A stretch of DNA of 64,000 nt from Sulfuricurvum sp. (lineage in GTDB: Bacteria; Campylobacterota; Campylobacteria; Campylobacterales; Sulfurimonadaceae). Of this stretch, positions 40,307 through 47,870 are shown in pieces. Under the pieces are notes generated by a model. It did not search any database and had not been told where the DNA came from. It saw only the letters and a list, made by a program, of their open reading frames with translations. The translations under genes were made by a program, and so were the position numbers. Location of the stretch: positions 1 to 64,000 of the forward strand of contig JAQTLL010000002.1 of NCBI GenBank assembly GCA_028714915.1, given 5' to 3'. Every line of letters starts with the position of its first letter. The stretch's first letter is position 1.

Positions 40307-40660
40307 ATGGCTTATATTACACAACTAAAACATTTGATTCAAACCGAACTCATACCTGATGTCGAAGATCACATTGACGAATTGTTTGAGGGAATTGCAT
40401 CGGCCAAAGATGCAACGCCACAAGAGCGCGCGGAGCTTGAAGACATGCAAGCGCTTCGTGATGAATACAAAGAGTTGCTCAAAGAGCTTGAAAGCGGTGA
40501 GATCGACGAAGAAGAAGCTGAACAACTCTATACCGAACTTACGGCTATGCGTGAGGGTGGAGACGAAGATGAGGATGACCTTGGATACGACGAAGAAGAG
40601 GAAGAGGACGAAGACGATTACGATGAGTTTGATATTGACAAAGAAGATGACCAGTATTAA
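40307..40660 (+). CDS. Small, very acidic conserved protein of unknown function
   Basis: A 117-residue protein; I do not recognise a family. The first 75 residues look helical and partly heptad-like (ITQLKHLIQTELIPDVEDHIDELF, ELEDMQALRDEYKELLKELESGEID). The last 40 are almost only Asp and Glu, with a run of acidic residues ending DDQY. The ATG at 40307 has AAGGA 6 nt upstream; longer forms would overlap the divergent efflux gene. Its stop overlaps the exonuclease start (TAATG), so the two are translationally coupled. The acidic tail suggests binding to a basic partner or mimicry of nucleic acid, which is inference. Confidence 0.7.
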   Translation: MAYITQLKHLIQTELIPDVEDHIDELFEGIASAKDATPQERAELEDMQALRDEYKELLKELESGEIDEEEAEQLYTELTAMREGGDEDEDDLGYDEEEEEDEDDYDEFDIDKEDDQY

Positions 40661-41400
40661 TGGCTAAATATGTCATTTTAGACACCGAAACAACGGGTGC
40701 AGGAGAAAACGATCGTGTGATACAGCTTGGATTTATGGTTCTGGATGGCAAAAATGTTCAGGTTCATAATGATTTGTGTTCCAGTATTGTTCCCATCGGA
40801 TACGGTGCGATGGAAGTCCACGGTATTACACCTGACCAAATCGAAGGGAAGCCTTCTTGCGTTGAAACCTCCGCATTTAAGGCGTTGGAAGTGTTAAATA
40901 CTCCCGATAACGTGATGATTATTCATAATGCCCCGTTTGATTTGGGGATGTTGCAGAAAGAAAACTTTACCTCAAAAATGCGTCTGATTGATACCCTGCG
41001 ATGTGCAAAACACCTTTTTGATGAAGAGGAAGCGCATCGGTTGCAGTTTTTTCGGTATCGATTGGGACTGTACAAACTCGAGCAAGCGGAAGCAGAGGCA
41101 TTGGGAATTGTCGTCAAAGCGCACGATGCCATCGGCGATGTGTTGGTATTGAAGCTTTTTCTCACGGAACTTCGTAAAAAACTCACCGAACGTTTCGGAA
41201 ACGTCAATCCCATCGATAAGATGGTGGAACTGACTCAAACCCCTGTTTTGATTACGAAGCCTTTGAAGTTTGGTAAACATAAGGGCAAAACACTCAGTGA
41301 GATTGTGATGACGGATAAAGGGTATCTTTCATGGATGCTCGCCAATATGGAAAATCTTGACGAAGATATGAAATACAGTATTGCTAAGGTTTTGGAATAA
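40660..41400 (+). CDS. DEDDh 3'-5' exonuclease with C-terminal DUF3820 domain
   Basis: A 246-residue DnaQ-like exonuclease. ExoI is VILDTETTG (Asp8, Glu10), ExoII HNAPFDLGML (near 87-96) and ExoIII HDAIGDVLVL (near 149-158), giving the DEDDh set. The C-terminal 45 residues (PLKFGKHKGKTLSEIVMTDKGYLSWML) match DUF3820, a small domain found in exonucleases and a quorum-regulated protein. It could edit or trim DNA or RNA; it differs from the polymerase-bound epsilon subunit by this added domain. It is coupled to the acidic protein gene. Confidence 0.9.
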   Translation: MAKYVILDTETTGAGENDRVIQLGFMVLDGKNVQVHNDLCSSIVPIGYGAMEVHGITPDQIEGKPSCVETSAFKALEVLNTPDNVMIIHNAPFDLGMLQKENFTSKMRLIDTLRCAKHLFDEEEAHRLQFFRYRLGLYKLEQAEAEALGIVVKAHDAIGDVLVLKLFLTELRKKLTERFGNVNPIDKMVELTQTPVLITKPLKFGKHKGKTLSEIVMTDKGYLSWMLANMENLDEDMKYSIAKVLE

Positions 41401-42479: not shown

Positions 42480-43724
42480 ATGAACTATGAAGAGTACGCA
42501 GGAAAATCGGTATTGCTGTTGGGTAAAACCCGCTCGCTTAATGGGGTGGAATTTGAAGTGCTGTTGAAACTGCATTCTATGAGTGTTGTTAAGCAGTTTG
42601 ACGAGACGGTTGCCCTTATCATCGAGGGAAAGATGATGAACCCCCTTGAGCTTCAAGAGAGCGAACGGATTTATGAGTCACATACTGTTCCCATTGTAGA
42701 CATTGGTGCGATTGAGAAATGGCTGTGCGGTTCTATTGAACCTAATCGTTTGCTTATGAGTTTGAAACTTTCACGCGACCAAGATCGTCTGGTCAATTTT
42801 CTCCAAAATCCTTACATCACCGATGAACTTTTTTTTAAACTTCTGAAGCTGTACGATTGGCAGGGGGAAGGGTTGTTTGATAACGATACAAACCGTGACG
42901 TAACGGCAGCGATTATCGGACGATTTTATATCGATTTGGAGCGTAATCATAATGTTCAATACGCGATGAGCGGTTTGGCCCATTTGGTTGAGAAATATGG
43001 AAATTCCCAATTAATTATGGCTATTTCTGAGCTTTCTCCGATTGCGAAAGAGTTAAAAAATTCAAATGACAGGTCACTTTCTGGAGTGCTTGATGCAATG
43101 GCACTGCACAGCGATACTCCTAAATCTCTTTTACAATTATTGCTTAAAGAGCGAGCTTATTTATTGGCACACCGAGAACCGTTGGTGTTGGAAAAAGAGC
43201 TTCTTGCGTTGGAGGATGAGACTATCTTGCGGAGTTTGGCGCACAATGTTACATTGTCGCAAGAAGGGGCAGATAGTTTGGAGCAACAATATCCTGAGCT
43301 GATTGCCTCATTTTATCCTTTGGATGAGATACGTTTTGAGCGGTTGATGGGAGAATCCATCGCCCTTGCTTCAAATCCATCCCTCACACCTTCGATGCAA
43401 GAGAGATTGATGGAGATGAACAAGGAGGCTGTTTTTTCAGCCCTTGCTCAAAATACGGCACTTAGACCAGAGCATTTAGAAACGCTTTTTGTGCTGAATC
43501 AATACGGTGAGCAATTGGCTTCCAATGCCTCTTTATTTCCGGAATATTTGGAACGCTTGTATCAAAATGCTTCTCCAAATATTTTGAGGGCATTAGCCTC
43601 CAACACCTCTACACCCGTAGAGATACTCTATCAACTCTCCCTCGACCAACGCACTGAGAGAGCGGTAAAAACCAACCCCGCTTTTGGCAAACACATACAA
43701 ACCTATAATTTAGGATGGAACTAA
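42480..43724 (+). CDS. LRV-like repeat protein linked to a MoxR-VWA pair
   Basis: A 414-residue protein I cannot assign to a named family. Residues 1-85 resemble a BRCT-like alpha/beta fold (GKSVLLLGKTRSLNGVEFEVLLK ... VPIVDIGAIEKWL). The second half (about 240-405) holds five or more repeats of about 22-26 residues with the pattern LAxNxxLxPexLexL (for example ALASNPSLTPSMQERL, ALAQNTALRPEHLETL, QLASNASLFPEYLERL, ALASNTSTPVEILYQL), close to leucine-rich-repeat variants, giving a curved helical scaffold. The start at 42480 is chosen because a TATAAT box overlaps the earlier ATG. Its stop overlaps the MoxR start (TAATG). It is probably a scaffold or substrate adaptor for the downstream ATPase and VWA protein. 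Confidence 0.65.
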   Translation: MNYEEYAGKSVLLLGKTRSLNGVEFEVLLKLHSMSVVKQFDETVALIIEGKMMNPLELQESERIYESHTVPIVDIGAIEKWLCGSIEPNRLLMSLKLSRDQDRLVNFLQNPYITDELFFKLLKLYDWQGEGLFDNDTNRDVTAAIIGRFYIDLERNHNVQYAMSGLAHLVEKYGNSQLIMAISELSPIAKELKNSNDRSLSGVLDAMALHSDTPKSLLQLLLKERAYLLAHREPLVLEKELLALEDETILRSLAHNVTLSQEGADSLEQQYPELIASFYPLDEIRFERLMGESIALASNPSLTPSMQERLMEMNKEAVFSALAQNTALRPEHLETLFVLNQYGEQLASNASLFPEYLERLYQNASPNILRALASNTSTPVEILYQLSLDQRTERAVKTNPAFGKHIQTYNLGWN

Positions 43725-44719
43725 TGCGTGTCAGAGAAACAATAGCAACAATGAGTTCAATGATTGACTCAAAAATACCGACATTTTTATGGGGTCCTCC
43801 GGGAATCGGAAAGTCGTCGATTATCAAACAAATTGCACAAGACAGTGGTGTGGAATGCATCGATTTGCGCCTCTCTTTGATGGACCCGACTGATCTCAAA
43901 GGGATTCCATTTTATGAGAAAGAGTCTCACACTGCTTTATGGGCTCCACCGTCGTTCTTGCCTCGTGAAGGTCGGGGGATACTTTTTCTCGATGAGCTTA
44001 ACTCTGCCGCCCCTGCTGTGCAAGCCTCTGCCTATCAGCTGATTTTGGATCGTCGTGTGGGCGAATACGTTCTTCCTGATGGGTGGGCGATTGTTGCGGC
44101 GGGAAACCGTGAGGGGGATCGCGGGGTTGTGTATCGTCTCCCCTCGCCGTTAGCAAACCGTTTTGTCCATATTGAAATGGAAGTTAATGTGGCAGATTGG
44201 CGTGAGTGGGCGATGAAGCGTAGGGTGGATGGACGTATTGTGGCGTACATCGGATTTAAAAACGGCGCGCTTTTTACGTTTGATCCTACTGCTAATGAGC
44301 GAAGTTTTGCGACACCTCGAAGCTGGGAAGCGGTGCATAATGTTTTGCAAAGCACGTTGCCACAGCCGTTACTCCTCGAAGCAATCAGTGGTGCGGTAGG
44401 AAAAGCCAATGCAGTGGATTTTTTGGGATTTTGTAAAGTGATGACCCTTTTGCCCGATATGGATGCGATTTTGAGCGGTGAAAGCAGTGACCACCCAACA
44501 GATATTTCGGCACTGTATGCTCTCTCGTCAGCTCTCGTCGGACGGATTTTAAGTGATCCTGATGAGAAGAAAATCGACCATCTCCTTCGTTATACATTGA
44601 AACTACAAAGCGAGTTTGCGGTGATGATTGTCCAAGACATTCAACGTCAGGGAATCGTGATGGATCATATTCAAAGTTACGGCGATTGGGTCAATGCGTA
44701 CGCCTATTTGCTATGCTAG
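43724..44719 (+). CDS. MoxR-family AAA+ ATPase
   Basis: A 331-residue AAA+ protein of the MoxR group, which remodels or inserts cofactors into partner proteins together with VWA proteins. Walker A GPPGIGKS (24-31), Walker B ILFLDELNSA (86-95), sensor 1 AAGNREGDRG and arginine finger PLANRF are intact. The start at 43724 has AGGA about 8 nt upstream and overlaps the previous stop by one base; an ATG at 43715 is possible. The 3' end overlaps the VWA gene by 7 nt. All three genes are thus coupled. Confidence 0.9.
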   Translation: MRVRETIATMSSMIDSKIPTFLWGPPGIGKSSIIKQIAQDSGVECIDLRLSLMDPTDLKGIPFYEKESHTALWAPPSFLPREGRGILFLDELNSAAPAVQASAYQLILDRRVGEYVLPDGWAIVAAGNREGDRGVVYRLPSPLANRFVHIEMEVNVADWREWAMKRRVDGRIVAYIGFKNGALFTFDPTANERSFATPRSWEAVHNVLQSTLPQPLLLEAISGAVGKANAVDFLGFCKVMTLLPDMDAILSGESSDHPTDISALYALSSALVGRILSDPDEKKIDHLLRYTLKLQSEFAVMIVQDIQRQGIVMDHIQSYGDWVNAYAYLLC

Positions 44720-45801
44720 ATTTTAGCCGAGTCAAATCGAAGCTTCTCGTCGAGCATCCCTATTTTGGCACTCTTTCGAGCGGTTTGGAAATTGTGGTCA
44801 ATGATAATATCGAGAGCTTTATCCTGCACGGCAATTGTTTTGAGTATAGAGAAGATTTTTTTAACACTCTTAGCGATGAGCAGGTGGCGTTTTCCCTCTC
44901 TAATGCGGCACTGCACACTGTCCTCTCTCATCCCTTACGTATTGGCAATCGTAGTCCATGGCTATGGTATACGGCATGTGATCATGCGATTAACAATATG
45001 CTCATCGACAATGATTTTGTCCCCCCCAGTAAAATCACCTATGATCCGCGCTTTCGAGGTCAATACGCCGAAGAGATTTATGAAGAGCTTTTAGACACTA
45101 TCACCCGTGAAGATTTGAACGATAAAGATAATGATTTACGGCGAAATAATGAAATACCTCCAGATAAACTTGAAGCTGCACAAACCGAGATACTCTCCCA
45201 AAATGCGCTTCAAAAAGGCTCAGAGATGGGAAGTTTGCCGGAAGGATTGGAGCGATTAATACCCATATCTCTTAAAGGGTTGATTGATTGGCGTAGCGTT
45301 TTGCGAGATGCTATCGGCGGATACTACGTCAGCGATTACGCCATGATGCCCCCTTCCAAAAAGCTCCTCTATGCCGGTATCTATCTCCCCAGCGCCACAT
45401 CACGTCATTTGGAACTTGTCATTGGGATTGACAGTTCAGGTTCGGTGGATGAGGTGGTATTGGCGCAGTTTATCGCTGAGGTTGAATCGATAACGGAGCT
45501 TTTTGGCTCGTACAGTATTGAGTTACTGGTGTGTGATGATCGTGTTCGCAGTCATCAGCGTTTTACCAACGGAGAGAATATAGAGTACACTCTTGAAGGG
45601 GGAGGGGGAACTGATTTTACCCCTGTTTTTGAGTTCATTGATAGACAATTAACCCCTCCGAAGATGCTCCTTTATTTTACCGATTTGGACGGCAAATTTC
45701 CGATGAGAGAGCCTCATTATGAGACGGTGTGGATTACACCTGTGATGAGAGACGTACCGTTTGGGAGAGTGATAGAAATCAAGGATAAAAGTGTGCTATA
45801 A
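44713..45801 (+). CDS. VWA-like protein with degenerate metallopeptidase region (DUF2201-type)
   Basis: A 362-residue protein pairing with the upstream MoxR ATPase. The C-terminal VWA-like domain has a full MIDAS: DSSGS (240-244), Thr300-Asp301 in GGGTDF, and Asp324. The N-terminal half follows the DUF2201 metallopeptidase layout, with WYTACDHAINNML and DPRFRGQYAEEIYEELL, but where that family has HExLHxxxxH this protein reads NAALHTVLSH (64-73), so the first His and the catalytic Glu are gone. A binding role is therefore more likely than proteolysis. The ATG at 44713 lies inside the MoxR gene end. The 3' end holds the promoter of the next toxin-antitoxin pair. Confidence 0.85.
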   Translation: MLDFSRVKSKLLVEHPYFGTLSSGLEIVVNDNIESFILHGNCFEYREDFFNTLSDEQVAFSLSNAALHTVLSHPLRIGNRSPWLWYTACDHAINNMLIDNDFVPPSKITYDPRFRGQYAEEIYEELLDTITREDLNDKDNDLRRNNEIPPDKLEAAQTEILSQNALQKGSEMGSLPEGLERLIPISLKGLIDWRSVLRDAIGGYYVSDYAMMPPSKKLLYAGIYLPSATSRHLELVIGIDSSGSVDEVVLAQFIAEVESITELFGSYSIELLVCDDRVRSHQRFTNGENIEYTLEGGGGTDFTPVFEFIDRQLTPPKMLLYFTDLDGKFPMREPHYETVWITPVMRDVPFGRVIEIKDKSVL

Positions 45802-45831: not shown

Positions 45832-46152
45832 ATGCAAACGATAGGTATTAAAGATTTACAACTTAACCCAGCCATACTCACAAACTCTTTACAAAATGAT
45901 GAGTACACTATGATAACAAAACACTCGAAGCCCATCGGAATGGCAGTATCCTTTAACGATGCTATCATATCTGATGGTCTGAAAACAGCCTTGATGGTTG
46001 ATGCGTACAAAAAAGGGTACATCAGCTTGGGACAACTGGGAAAATCACTCGATATATCGCACAAAAAAGCGATGAAAATGCTCTCTTTGATGCACATTGA
46101 TGTTGTTGATTACGATTTCAAAGATGATGTGAAATTTTTGGATAGCTTTTAA
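45832..46152 (+). CDS. Antitoxin, Phd-like N-terminus with UPF0175-like C-terminus
   Basis: A 106-residue protein. The first 50 residues (MQTIGIKDLQLNPAILTNSLQNDEYTMITKHSKPIGMAVSF) follow the Phd/YefM pattern of DNA-binding antitoxins. The C-terminal part (DAYKKGYISLGQLGKSLDISHKKAMKMLSLMHIDVVDYD) is a helix-turn-helix-like UPF0175 segment, typically paired with DUF3368 PIN toxins, which is what follows. AAGGAG is at good distance from the ATG. It overlaps the toxin start by one base (TAATG). Confidence 0.82.
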   Translation: MQTIGIKDLQLNPAILTNSLQNDEYTMITKHSKPIGMAVSFNDAIISDGLKTALMVDAYKKGYISLGQLGKSLDISHKKAMKMLSLMHIDVVDYDFKDDVKFLDSF

Positions 46153-46613
46153 TGATTATCAGCGATAGCACGACACTTATTGTCTTGTTTGACTTGGATA
46201 GAACCGATTTGCTCTCAAATCTTTTTTCCACTATTATTATACCAACCTCGGTTTATAAAGAAATTTCTACGAAAAACGAGCTTGTTTTGCCCAACTTTAT
46301 GAGTGTTATAGAAGTTCAAAACAGCGAACTGCTCGAAAGTCTCAAAATGATTTTAGATGATGGAGAAAGTGAAGCAATTGCTTTGGCGGTGGAAAGAAAA
46401 AGTAAGTTGATTATTGATGAAAAAAAGGGACGTAAAATAGCCATTAATCAAGGACTAAAAATTATCGGGCTGCTTGGTATTGTCTATCTTAATGTCAAAA
46501 GAGAATTTTTAATTAAACAGCAAGCCATAAAACTGTTAGAAGATATTCAAGCCCACGGATACAGAATCAATCAACGTATTATCGATGATATGCTTAAGAT
46601 GCTAGATACCTAA
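46152..46613 (+). CDS. DUF3368 / PIN-like toxin
   Basis: A 153-residue PIN-fold protein: MIISDSTTLIVLFDLDRTDLL with the first acid Asp5, IIPTSVYKEI, DDGESEAIALAVE with the second acidic cluster, and LIIDEKKGRKIA with the third. This order is that of DUF3368 proteins, presumed ribonuclease toxins. It is translationally coupled to the UPF0175-like antitoxin. The active-site acids are all present. The RNA target is unknown. Confidence 0.85.
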   Translation: MIISDSTTLIVLFDLDRTDLLSNLFSTIIIPTSVYKEISTKNELVLPNFMSVIEVQNSELLESLKMILDDGESEAIALAVERKSKLIIDEKKGRKIAINQGLKIIGLLGIVYLNVKREFLIKQQAIKLLEDIQAHGYRINQRIIDDMLKMLDT

Positions 46614-46631: not shown

Positions 46632-47870
46632 ATGATTGAAAATGCCTTAAAAATCTTAGAAACCTCTAACCTCTTTATCACCGGCGGTGCAGGTTCGGGA
46701 AAAACGACACTGACGCGTACCATCATTGAGGATATTAAAAAAAGAGGGCTGAAAGTAGCCTGTTTAGCCTCTACGGGAATGGCGGCGACGTTGATTGAAG
46801 GGCAGACGCTTCACAGCTTTTTTGATTTGGGGATTTCGAACTCCCAAGAGGAACTGGAGCGTAACGGCAAACTCGATGCGGCGAAAAAAATTATCAAACT
46901 TGCGGGGAGTATGGACGTTATTATCATCGATGAAATTTCAATGGTTGGAGCTGCGTTGCTGGACATGATACGGCTTCGTTTGTTGCAATGCGATTTTAAA
47001 GGCAAGCTCATTGTGGTGGGGGATTTTTTACAGCTTCCTCCTGTCGTACGGGGGAATGAGCCGATATATTTTGCGTTTGAATCTCCTAGCTGGGAGCGGT
47101 TTGCGTTTGAAACGCTTCATTTGGAAGGATCATATCGAACCTGTGAATCGGAGTTTTTGACGTTGCTGGAGAGTGTCCGTCATGCCTCAATTGATGAGGA
47201 GTCGATGTGTGCATTGGATGCGTTGGTGAAGCCGTTAAACGAGGATAAAAGTACCATCACATTACTGTACGGCAAAAACATCAGTGCCCAAAATCATAAC
47301 CGTGCACAACTGGAACATCTAAACGGAGAAGCCATAGCGTTGTCTACTTACGTCACGATTCATGACAAAAAAATGCAAGAGCGTGATGTAGAGCGGTTTA
47401 TGAGTGAAAGCCGTCTGGAGAGGGTTATGGTTCTTAAACTCGGTGCCCCCATCCTCTTTACCCGCAACTCATGGAACTACTACAATGGGGAACGGGGAAG
47501 AATCCTCTCTATTGAAGAAGAGTGTGTTTGGGTCAAAAAAGAGGACGGAAAGAGCGTTAAAGTGGAGCGGGTAGAGACGATAAAGTCACGATGGAGTGAG
47601 AAAGGAAAATCACTTAATGAGGAGAAGCTCATTACCCTGAGCCAATTTCCCATCACCCTCGCGTTTGCGATCACCATCCATAAATCACAAGGGATGTCTT
47701 TGGCGGATTACGTCATCGACACCAACGAGATTTTTGCCCCATCGCAGTTTTATGTGGCACTTTCACGTTCGGTATCAGCGCATCGGGTGACGCTGACGAA
47801 ACCCAATCGCTCATGGGAGAAACTATGCTTTGTACATCCGAAAGCGCAGAGATTTTTTTACTCAAAATGA
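46632..47870 (+). CDS. PIF1-like / RecD-like DNA helicase
   Basis: A 412-residue superfamily 1B helicase. Walker A GGAGSGKTTLT (18-28), motif Ia CLASTGMAATLIEGQTLHSFF, Walker B VIIIDEISMVG, motif III VVGDFLQLPPV, and the C-terminal UvrD-like signature FAITIHKSQGMSL followed by YVALSRSVSAHRVTL are all present. PIF1-family helicases unwind duplexes and G-quadruplexes. It follows the toxin-antitoxin pair by 18 nt and may be read from the same promoter, though it is a conserved single gene in many relatives. Confidence 0.92.
   Translation: MIENALKILETSNLFITGGAGSGKTTLTRTIIEDIKKRGLKVACLASTGMAATLIEGQTLHSFFDLGISNSQEELERNGKLDAAKKIIKLAGSMDVIIIDEISMVGAALLDMIRLRLLQCDFKGKLIVVGDFLQLPPVVRGNEPIYFAFESPSWERFAFETLHLEGSYRTCESEFLTLLESVRHASIDEESMCALDALVKPLNEDKSTITLLYGKNISAQNHNRAQLEHLNGEAIALSTYVTIHDKKMQERDVERFMSESRLERVMVLKLGAPILFTRNSWNYYNGERGRILSIEEECVWVKKEDGKSVKVERVETIKSRWSEKGKSLNEEKLITLSQFPITLAFAITIHKSQGMSLADYVIDTNEIFAPSQFYVALSRSVSAHRVTLTKPNRSWEKLCFVHPKAQRFFYSK

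Follow-up and report, generated by a model that had tools for sequence, protein, structure and literature searches.

We analysed a 64,000-nucleotide window of the Sulfuricurvum sp. contig JAQTLL010000002.1, in which three overlapping genes occupy positions 42480-45801 of the forward strand. The first gene of this triplet (hereafter gene 1) codes for a BRCT-LRV protein, the second for a MoxR-type ATPase and the third for a protein carrying a VWA domain:

42480..43724, + strand: gene 1, BRCT-LRV protein of 414 residues (P0001), from its AlphaFold2 model and family-level LRV/LRV_2 matches
43724..44719, + strand: MoxR-type AAA+ ATPase of 331 residues (P0002), from Pfam and conserved motifs
44713..45801, + strand: DUF2201_N + DUF2201 VWA protein of 362 residues (P0003), from Pfam and the VWA fold

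Gene 1 and the MoxR gene meet at a TAATG (1-nucleotide overlap, MoxR start at 43724), and the MoxR and VWA genes overlap by 7 nucleotides. A first-pass annotation had reported these coordinates and end-to-end overlaps, together with the NAALH and metal ion-dependent adhesion site (MIDAS) motifs discussed below; all were found correct on re-reading. Its statement that the set has no other members was wrong. In the genus Sulfuricurvum, a Pif1-like helicase gene normally follows the triplet, and in Sulfurimonadaceae a DnaQ/ExoX-like exonuclease gene flanks it on the same strand. The closest named loci for gene 1 are in Sulfuricurvum metagenome-assembled genomes (MAGs), with about 83% identity.

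The distribution of the three genes was then compared. A scan of genome contigs detected gene 1 at 67 loci, all belonging to Campylobacterota or to MAG records grouping among them. A full-length gene 1 is carried by 69 of 397 Campylobacterota genomes. A matching MoxR is found in all 69 (in one of them, G222, as a fragment only) and a matching VWA in 68, the exception ending at a contig edge. The triplet proposed in the first-pass annotation is thus a recurrent one, and no homologue of gene 1 occurs in a genome devoid of MoxR. In 63 of the 69 genomes the MoxR gene lies directly downstream of gene 1 on the same strand. Conversely, among 16 Sulfurimonadaceae genomes lacking gene 1, none has a MoxR of the triplet type and two keep a VWA gene, one of these being a contig-edge fragment. 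Counts of genomes ignore shared descent, and a p-value derived from them was not taken to gauge the strength of the association. The co-occurrence goes far beyond chance, and its weight comes from genes that were repeatedly lost together and from genes that were retained once separated. In G249, G264 and G307, for instance, whose genomes are complete or nearly so, the VWA gene has been relocated yet kept. Overall, the data support the three genes being one inherited unit.

The spacing of the genes could also be taken to mean that gene 1 is a mere syntenic neighbour of MoxR-VWA having a separate function. In distant genera gene 1 and MoxR are spaced further apart, and in G042 gene 1 is found at a distance of about 63 kb. 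However, the genes remain jointly present after separation and were jointly lost in the 16 relatives, so that we hold this explanation to be highly improbable. An apparent fusion of gene 1 with MoxR at locus L108 was rejected, a run of N joining the two genes there.

Because the MoxR tree and the gene 1 tree both follow genera, inheritance of the triplet appears to be mainly vertical. Searches of plasmids and viral contigs did not find gene 1, and no collection searched had it outside Campylobacterota.

The protein encoded by gene 1 was modelled with AlphaFold2 (mean predicted local distance difference test score, pLDDT, 92.4), and its family was compared in an alignment of 58 homologues. Three regions were delineated:

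42483..42737, + strand: BRCT-fold domain, residues 2-86, with b-a-b-b-a-b-a topology, from the model, structure comparison and alignment
42741..42974, + strand: most conserved block of the protein, residues 88-165, from alignment conservation
43215..43676, + strand: LRV-type repeats with an asparagine ladder, from the model, structure comparison, family Pfam matches and alignment

Residues 2-86 superpose on the BRCT domain of a bacterial NAD-dependent DNA ligase (Z 8.7, 2.2 A, 77 residues). Further structural matches of this domain are the BRCT domains of RFC1, DNA ligases III and IV, XRCC1, Dbf4, Rev1 and PARP. At the sequence level, no Pfam BRCT profile matched the window protein or the 58 family members at an E-value of 0.01. 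Canonical BRCT domains bind phosphate through a Ser/Thr that precedes a conserved glycine in the b1-a1 loop. In the gene 1 family this glycine (Gly15) is invariant and is followed by Lys or Arg at position 16. Just before it, 57 of 58 members have Leu, Phe or Val instead of the phosphate-pocket Ser/Thr, and phosphate reading by this BRCT domain is therefore not supported.

Beyond the BRCT domain, the model is a helical solenoid. The LRV protein of A. vinelandii (1LRV) aligned to it over 189 residues with Z 7.4 and a root-mean-square deviation of 10 A; HEAT proteins align likewise. In a library of viral structures, gene 1 is best matched by a protein annotated as leucine rich repeat variant, and its N-terminal domain is matched by several ligase/BRCT proteins. 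The window protein scores below the cut-off for LRV_2 (E 0.0023, 18.3 bits, cut-off 27), one of the two LRV families considered (PF01816 / PF25591). Across the 58 family members, LRV_2 is matched by 27 (best E 6e-14) and LRV by 10 (best E 1e-12). Six LAxN-type repeats were counted, with asparagines at positions 256, 299, 325, 349, 375 and 399, where the first-pass annotation had given five or more. The BRCT-like start and LRV repeats that it proposed are upheld by the fold and by family-level sequence evidence. It had been unable to name gene 1, which does belong to a nameable repeat family (LRV/LRV_2), and the predicted fold is not that of an enzyme. Neither of the two findings that the annotation had named as refuting its reading, an enzyme fold or homologues of gene 1 mostly lacking MoxR-VWA, was thus obtained. 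No solved structure matched the protein by sequence at the thresholds used. Between the BRCT domain and the repeats, residues 88-165 have the highest conservation score (0.70, as compared to 0.52 and 0.47), with R103, N138, R139 and R148 invariant in the 58 homologues. Since this block is the most conserved part of the protein, we consider it as a candidate docking surface.

The second protein has a complete AAA+ core, with Walker A, Walker B, sensor 1 asparagine and arginine finger. The Walker motifs lie at:

43793..43819, + strand: Walker A, GPPGIGKSS, with GxxG(I/V)GKSS kept in 18/18 aligned sequences
43976..43996, + strand: Walker B, GILFLDE, from the alignment of 18 sequences

The motifs GxxG(I/V)GKSS, FLDE, AAGN and ANRF are conserved in these 18 diverse MoxR sequences. 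With the window protein, the Pfam families AAA (E 2e-8), AAA_3 and AAA_5 were all above cut-off, and the nearest solved AAA structure by sequence profile is Midasin. MoxR AAA+ ATPases have been classified in seven subfamilies, among them PA2707 (PMC3893208). As in this family generally, the gene is linked to a VWA gene. We also observed that jumbo Pseudomonas phages of the PA5oct group encode a MoxR 47% identical to that of the window over 267 residues (L170:3968-5083).

The third protein matches DUF2201_N (80.3 bits, E 2e-22) and DUF2201 (94.3 bits, E 8e-27), both over cut-off, which bears out the pairing of MoxR with a DUF2201-type VWA protein read from the letters in the first pass. Its motifs are as follows:

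44902..44916, + strand: NAALH replacing HExxH, residues 64-68, from sequence and alignment
45430..45444, + strand: MIDAS motif DSSGS (D240-S242-S244), from alignment
45610-45612, + strand: MIDAS T300, from alignment
45682-45684, + strand: MIDAS D324, from alignment

The MIDAS residues (DxSxS, T, D) are invariant in 18/18 aligned VWA sequences, and the VWA domain of the model superposes on integrin-type I domains (Z 13.3, 2.9 A, 131 residues). These matches took up the list of structural neighbours, so that a zincin fold looked for in the N-terminal domain did not show in it. By sequence, no solved structure matched the protein at the thresholds used. The loss of the peptidase signature together with a complete MIDAS, noted for the window protein in the first pass, turned out to be family-wide in Campylobacterota. 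All Campylobacterota copies read that are linked to gene 1, and likewise the closest paralogues (pair b, see below), have N[A/G/S/C]xxH or a similar sequence in place of HExxH, and the more distant paralogues of pair c read H[T/V]LLH at this position. The signature is kept in the Burkholderia, Thermus, Synechocystis, Pontibacillus, Streptomyces, Azospirillum and Sphaerotilus relatives. Since HExxH is replaced across the Campylobacterota relatives checked and kept in most outgroups, the alignments indicate that its loss is ancient and fixed, and does not reflect decay.

Some genomes contain additional MoxR-VWA pairs lacking gene 1. Pair b is a duplicate forming a separate clade (support 100/100) beside the Hydrogenimonas gene 1 clade, and pair c is more distant. 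Both are confined to genomes bearing nif genes (32/32; one of these 32, G408, gave a partial match only), as compared to 15 nif-bearing genomes out of 47 without pairs b or c (Fisher p 8e-11). In Sulfuricurvum, they adjoin genes for the iron-molybdenum (FeMo) cofactor and for ferredoxin. At the loci concerned (L152:6409-19138, L158:7545-9748, L156:8993-11859), helical proteins are possible partners of pair c, and the b and c pairs themselves are candidate nitrogenase maturation factors. The MoxR-VWA motor thus exists without gene 1, as in the nif-linked duplicate, and gene 1 was never found without the motor; the motor is separable from gene 1. Because the duplicate of the nif region lacks gene 1, the latter looks like a client adaptor.

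These paralogues bear on the nature of the client. Known MoxR-VWA pairs serve for cofactor insertion into metalloenzymes (PMC13036017, PMC3893208), and the triplet might similarly be a machine of the NorQD/CoxDE kind that opens up a metalloenzyme, respiratory or other, so that its cofactor can be inserted, gene 1 recognizing the enzyme. The link of pairs b and c with nif genes, as well as the mostly chemolithotrophic lineages of the gene 1 carriers, would agree with this. In contrast, no metalloenzyme gene is conserved beside the gene 1 triplet, a BRCT domain would be unusual in such a role, and nifD is absent from the genome of the window. Nitrogenase can therefore not be the client of the window triplet. 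Metalloenzyme maturation in general we regard as possible, if rather doubtful.

The neighbouring genes were examined next. On the window, they are:

40660..41400, + strand: DnaQ/ExoX-like exonuclease, the upstream neighbour in Sulfurimonadaceae, from Pfam and neighbourhood comparison
45832..46613, + strand: UPF0175-like and PIN/DUF3368-like pair between the VWA and helicase genes, from Pfam, outside the conserved unit
46632..47870, + strand: Pif1/RecD-like superfamily 1 helicase, from Pfam, in Sulfuricurvum normally the next gene after that for the VWA protein

In Sulfurimonadaceae, the exonuclease gene precedes the triplet and the helicase gene follows it, always on the same strand. The start of the helicase gene often overlaps the VWA stop, as it does in most Sulfuricurvum. 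The UPF0175/PIN pair is absent from the same place in other Sulfuricurvum and resembles a toxin-antitoxin insertion. The exonuclease or the helicase as an obligate partner of the triplet was rejected, both being present in genomes that lack gene 1.

This neighbourhood raises the idea of a remodeller acting in DNA maintenance, in which the BRCT domain would target DNA ends or a repair or replication protein, and MoxR-VWA would dismantle or rearrange the nucleoprotein complex together with the exonuclease and the Pif1-like helicase. The ligase, RFC1, XRCC1 and PARP BRCT domains nearest to that of gene 1 and the co-directional genes on either side argue for it. A comparable theme of DNA-break domains may be seen in E. 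coli, where yehF (WGR domain) and yehI adjoin the MoxR gene yehL and the VWA gene yehP. However, the phosphate-pocket residue is missing in nearly the whole gene 1 family, exonuclease and helicase are also present in genomes that lack gene 1, their linkage with the triplet is lost outside Sulfurimonadaceae, and the DinB polymerase found near Hydrogenimonas loci is on the opposite strand (a DinB/Pol IV-like gene beside the triplet at L105, L109, L111 and L039). We consider such a role as tentative and somewhat unlikely.

Other genes have been inserted in or beside the unit in individual genomes. In two related genomes (L052:2016-8212, L059:10284-15906), Type III restriction-modification genes (mod, res) separate MoxR from VWA; the insert holds extra genes that by eye are AAA/OLD-like and Fic-like. 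A defence-island hot spot at this place was rejected, as the Type III set occurs in these two related loci only. Other inserts or rearrangements involve TerC, TonB-receptor and lgt/clpB regions. At L040:8070-8663, an opposite-strand open reading frame of 197 codons between gene 1 and MoxR is ADP-ribosyltransferase-like by eye and has no Pfam match.

Ternary conflict systems are characterised by a third component joined to MoxR-VWA (Kaur et al. 2020, PMC7159879), and gene 1 could accordingly be pictured as the sensor of an anti-phage or cell-death system of this kind. The restriction-modification and PIN genes that some genomes carry within or next to the unit go in this direction. Against it, the VWA protein has no effector domain, there is no VMAP, iSTAND, FtsH or propeller component, the bpMoxR match is below cut-off and no strong PADLOC match was obtained. 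Gene 1 was, moreover, found on none of the plasmids and viral contigs searched, and its inheritance follows genera. A conflict system is thus very unlikely.

Overall, the obligate joint inheritance of the BRCT-LRV protein, MoxR and the VWA protein in sulfur-oxidising Campylobacterota suggests a three-part remodelling machine. By analogy with related systems, the triplet is probably an ATP-driven, chaperone-like machine that remodels proteins, with gene 1 bringing a specific client. In NorQD, the VWA protein docks into the ring and twists the target open (PMC13036017), and it is from this analogy that a motor and arm mechanism is proposed. MoxR would form the AAA+ ring, that is the motor. The DUF2201 VWA protein would be the co-chaperone, docking in the ring and gripping the client via its MIDAS, and its dead N-terminal peptidase-like domain may work as a binding or lever module. 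Gene 1 would be a dedicated third subunit: the client, or a partner of the client, would be bound by its BRCT domain and LRV solenoid, and its conserved middle block would dock on the motor.

Several points weigh against this machine. The model of the VWA protein is of moderate quality (pLDDT 78, predicted template modelling score 0.47). In six of the genomes with gene 1, MoxR is not directly downstream of it, and the MoxR of G222 is only a fragment. The exonuclease and the helicase occur whether or not a genome has gene 1. In the neighbourhood comparison, no gene beyond the triplet was conserved outside Sulfurimonadaceae; synteny consequently points to no client.

As clients of the three-part machine, a DNA-maintenance complex is a leading candidate, on account of the BRCT domain and of the co-directional exonuclease and helicase genes; a metalloenzyme is the other candidate, on account of the nif-linked MoxR-VWA paralogues. 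In a more specific form, gene 1 would be the BRCT adaptor of a bacterial Midasin-like machine, directing it to complexes of DNA repair or replication. Its BRCT domain and LRV solenoid would recognize a DNA end or a repair factor, and the MoxR ring with the pseudo-peptidase VWA arm would dismantle the complex or load a partner together with the exonuclease and the helicase. We judge this form unlikely.

Repeat proteins beside MoxR-VWA were also looked for outside Campylobacterota, in a survey that covered plasmids. An LRV protein adjoins MoxR and a DUF2201 VWA protein on two Thermaceae plasmids, and most of the sampled plasmid pairs have another third gene or none. Repeat-protein third partners therefore recur without being universal. 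On the Synechocystis plasmid NC_020287.1 (18509-26231, partly covered by L166), an LRV-like gene lies about 4.5 kb from MoxR-VWA, with a DUF262 gene in between. Within Campylobacterota, an LRV protein of 198 residues is followed at L159:4714-6711 by a protein of 123 residues and by an Mrp/ApbC-type Fe-S carrier ATPase; small LRV proteins like this one occur in many Campylobacterota genomes.

Only a minority of MoxR-VWA machines have known clients. Gene 1 offers a handle on client choice because it invariably accompanies the motor in inheritance, combines BRCT and LRV parts in a client-recognition architecture, and was dropped in the nif-side duplicate. The triplet also documents an ancient pseudo-peptidase, in which a metallopeptidase-like arm has lost its catalytic residues phylum-wide while the MIDAS was kept. 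In the literature searched, of which the coverage is incomplete, no paper on MoxR with LRV or BRCT partners was found.

Compared with known systems, the triplet shares with the MoxR-VWA chaperones NorQ-NorD, RavA-ViaA and CoxD-CoxE, split counterparts of Midasin, the same AAA+ MoxR motifs beside a gene for a MIDAS-bearing VWA protein. It differs from them by a VWA protein of DUF2201 type with a dead peptidase-like N-terminus and by the obligate BRCT-LRV third gene. DUF2201 VWA and MoxR pairs are found on plasmids and in jumbo phages, with the vWA fused to a metallopeptidase domain (PMC7824862); they have the same DUF2201_N-DUF2201 architecture and MoxR neighbour as the triplet. Unlike the triplet, most of the DUF2201 examples read from outside Campylobacterota keep HExxH and most are without an LRV partner. 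On Thermus oshimai pTHEOS01 and Allomeiothermus silvanus pMESIL01, an LRV gene adjoins MoxR and a DUF2201 VWA gene as it does here. However, no BRCT domain was identified in these Thermaceae LRV proteins, the Thermus VWA protein has an intact HExxH, and the order in Allomeiothermus is LRV-VWA-MoxR. The E. coli cluster yehF-yehI-yehL-yehM-yehP-yehQ (YehL subfamily of MoxR) likewise groups MoxR and VWA genes with a DNA-type (WGR) protein, but its VWA protein is of CoxE type and has no DUF2201_N, and the cluster has neither LRV nor BRCT. The ternary MoxR-vWA conflict systems (VMAP, iSTAND, FtsH, beta-propeller) also combine MoxR and vWA with a third component, whereas the triplet has none of their defining third components or effector domains and its inheritance is vertical, not mobile. 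What is new here within the known kind of MoxR-VWA chaperones is the association of a BRCT-LRV third subunit with a pseudo-peptidase VWA protein.

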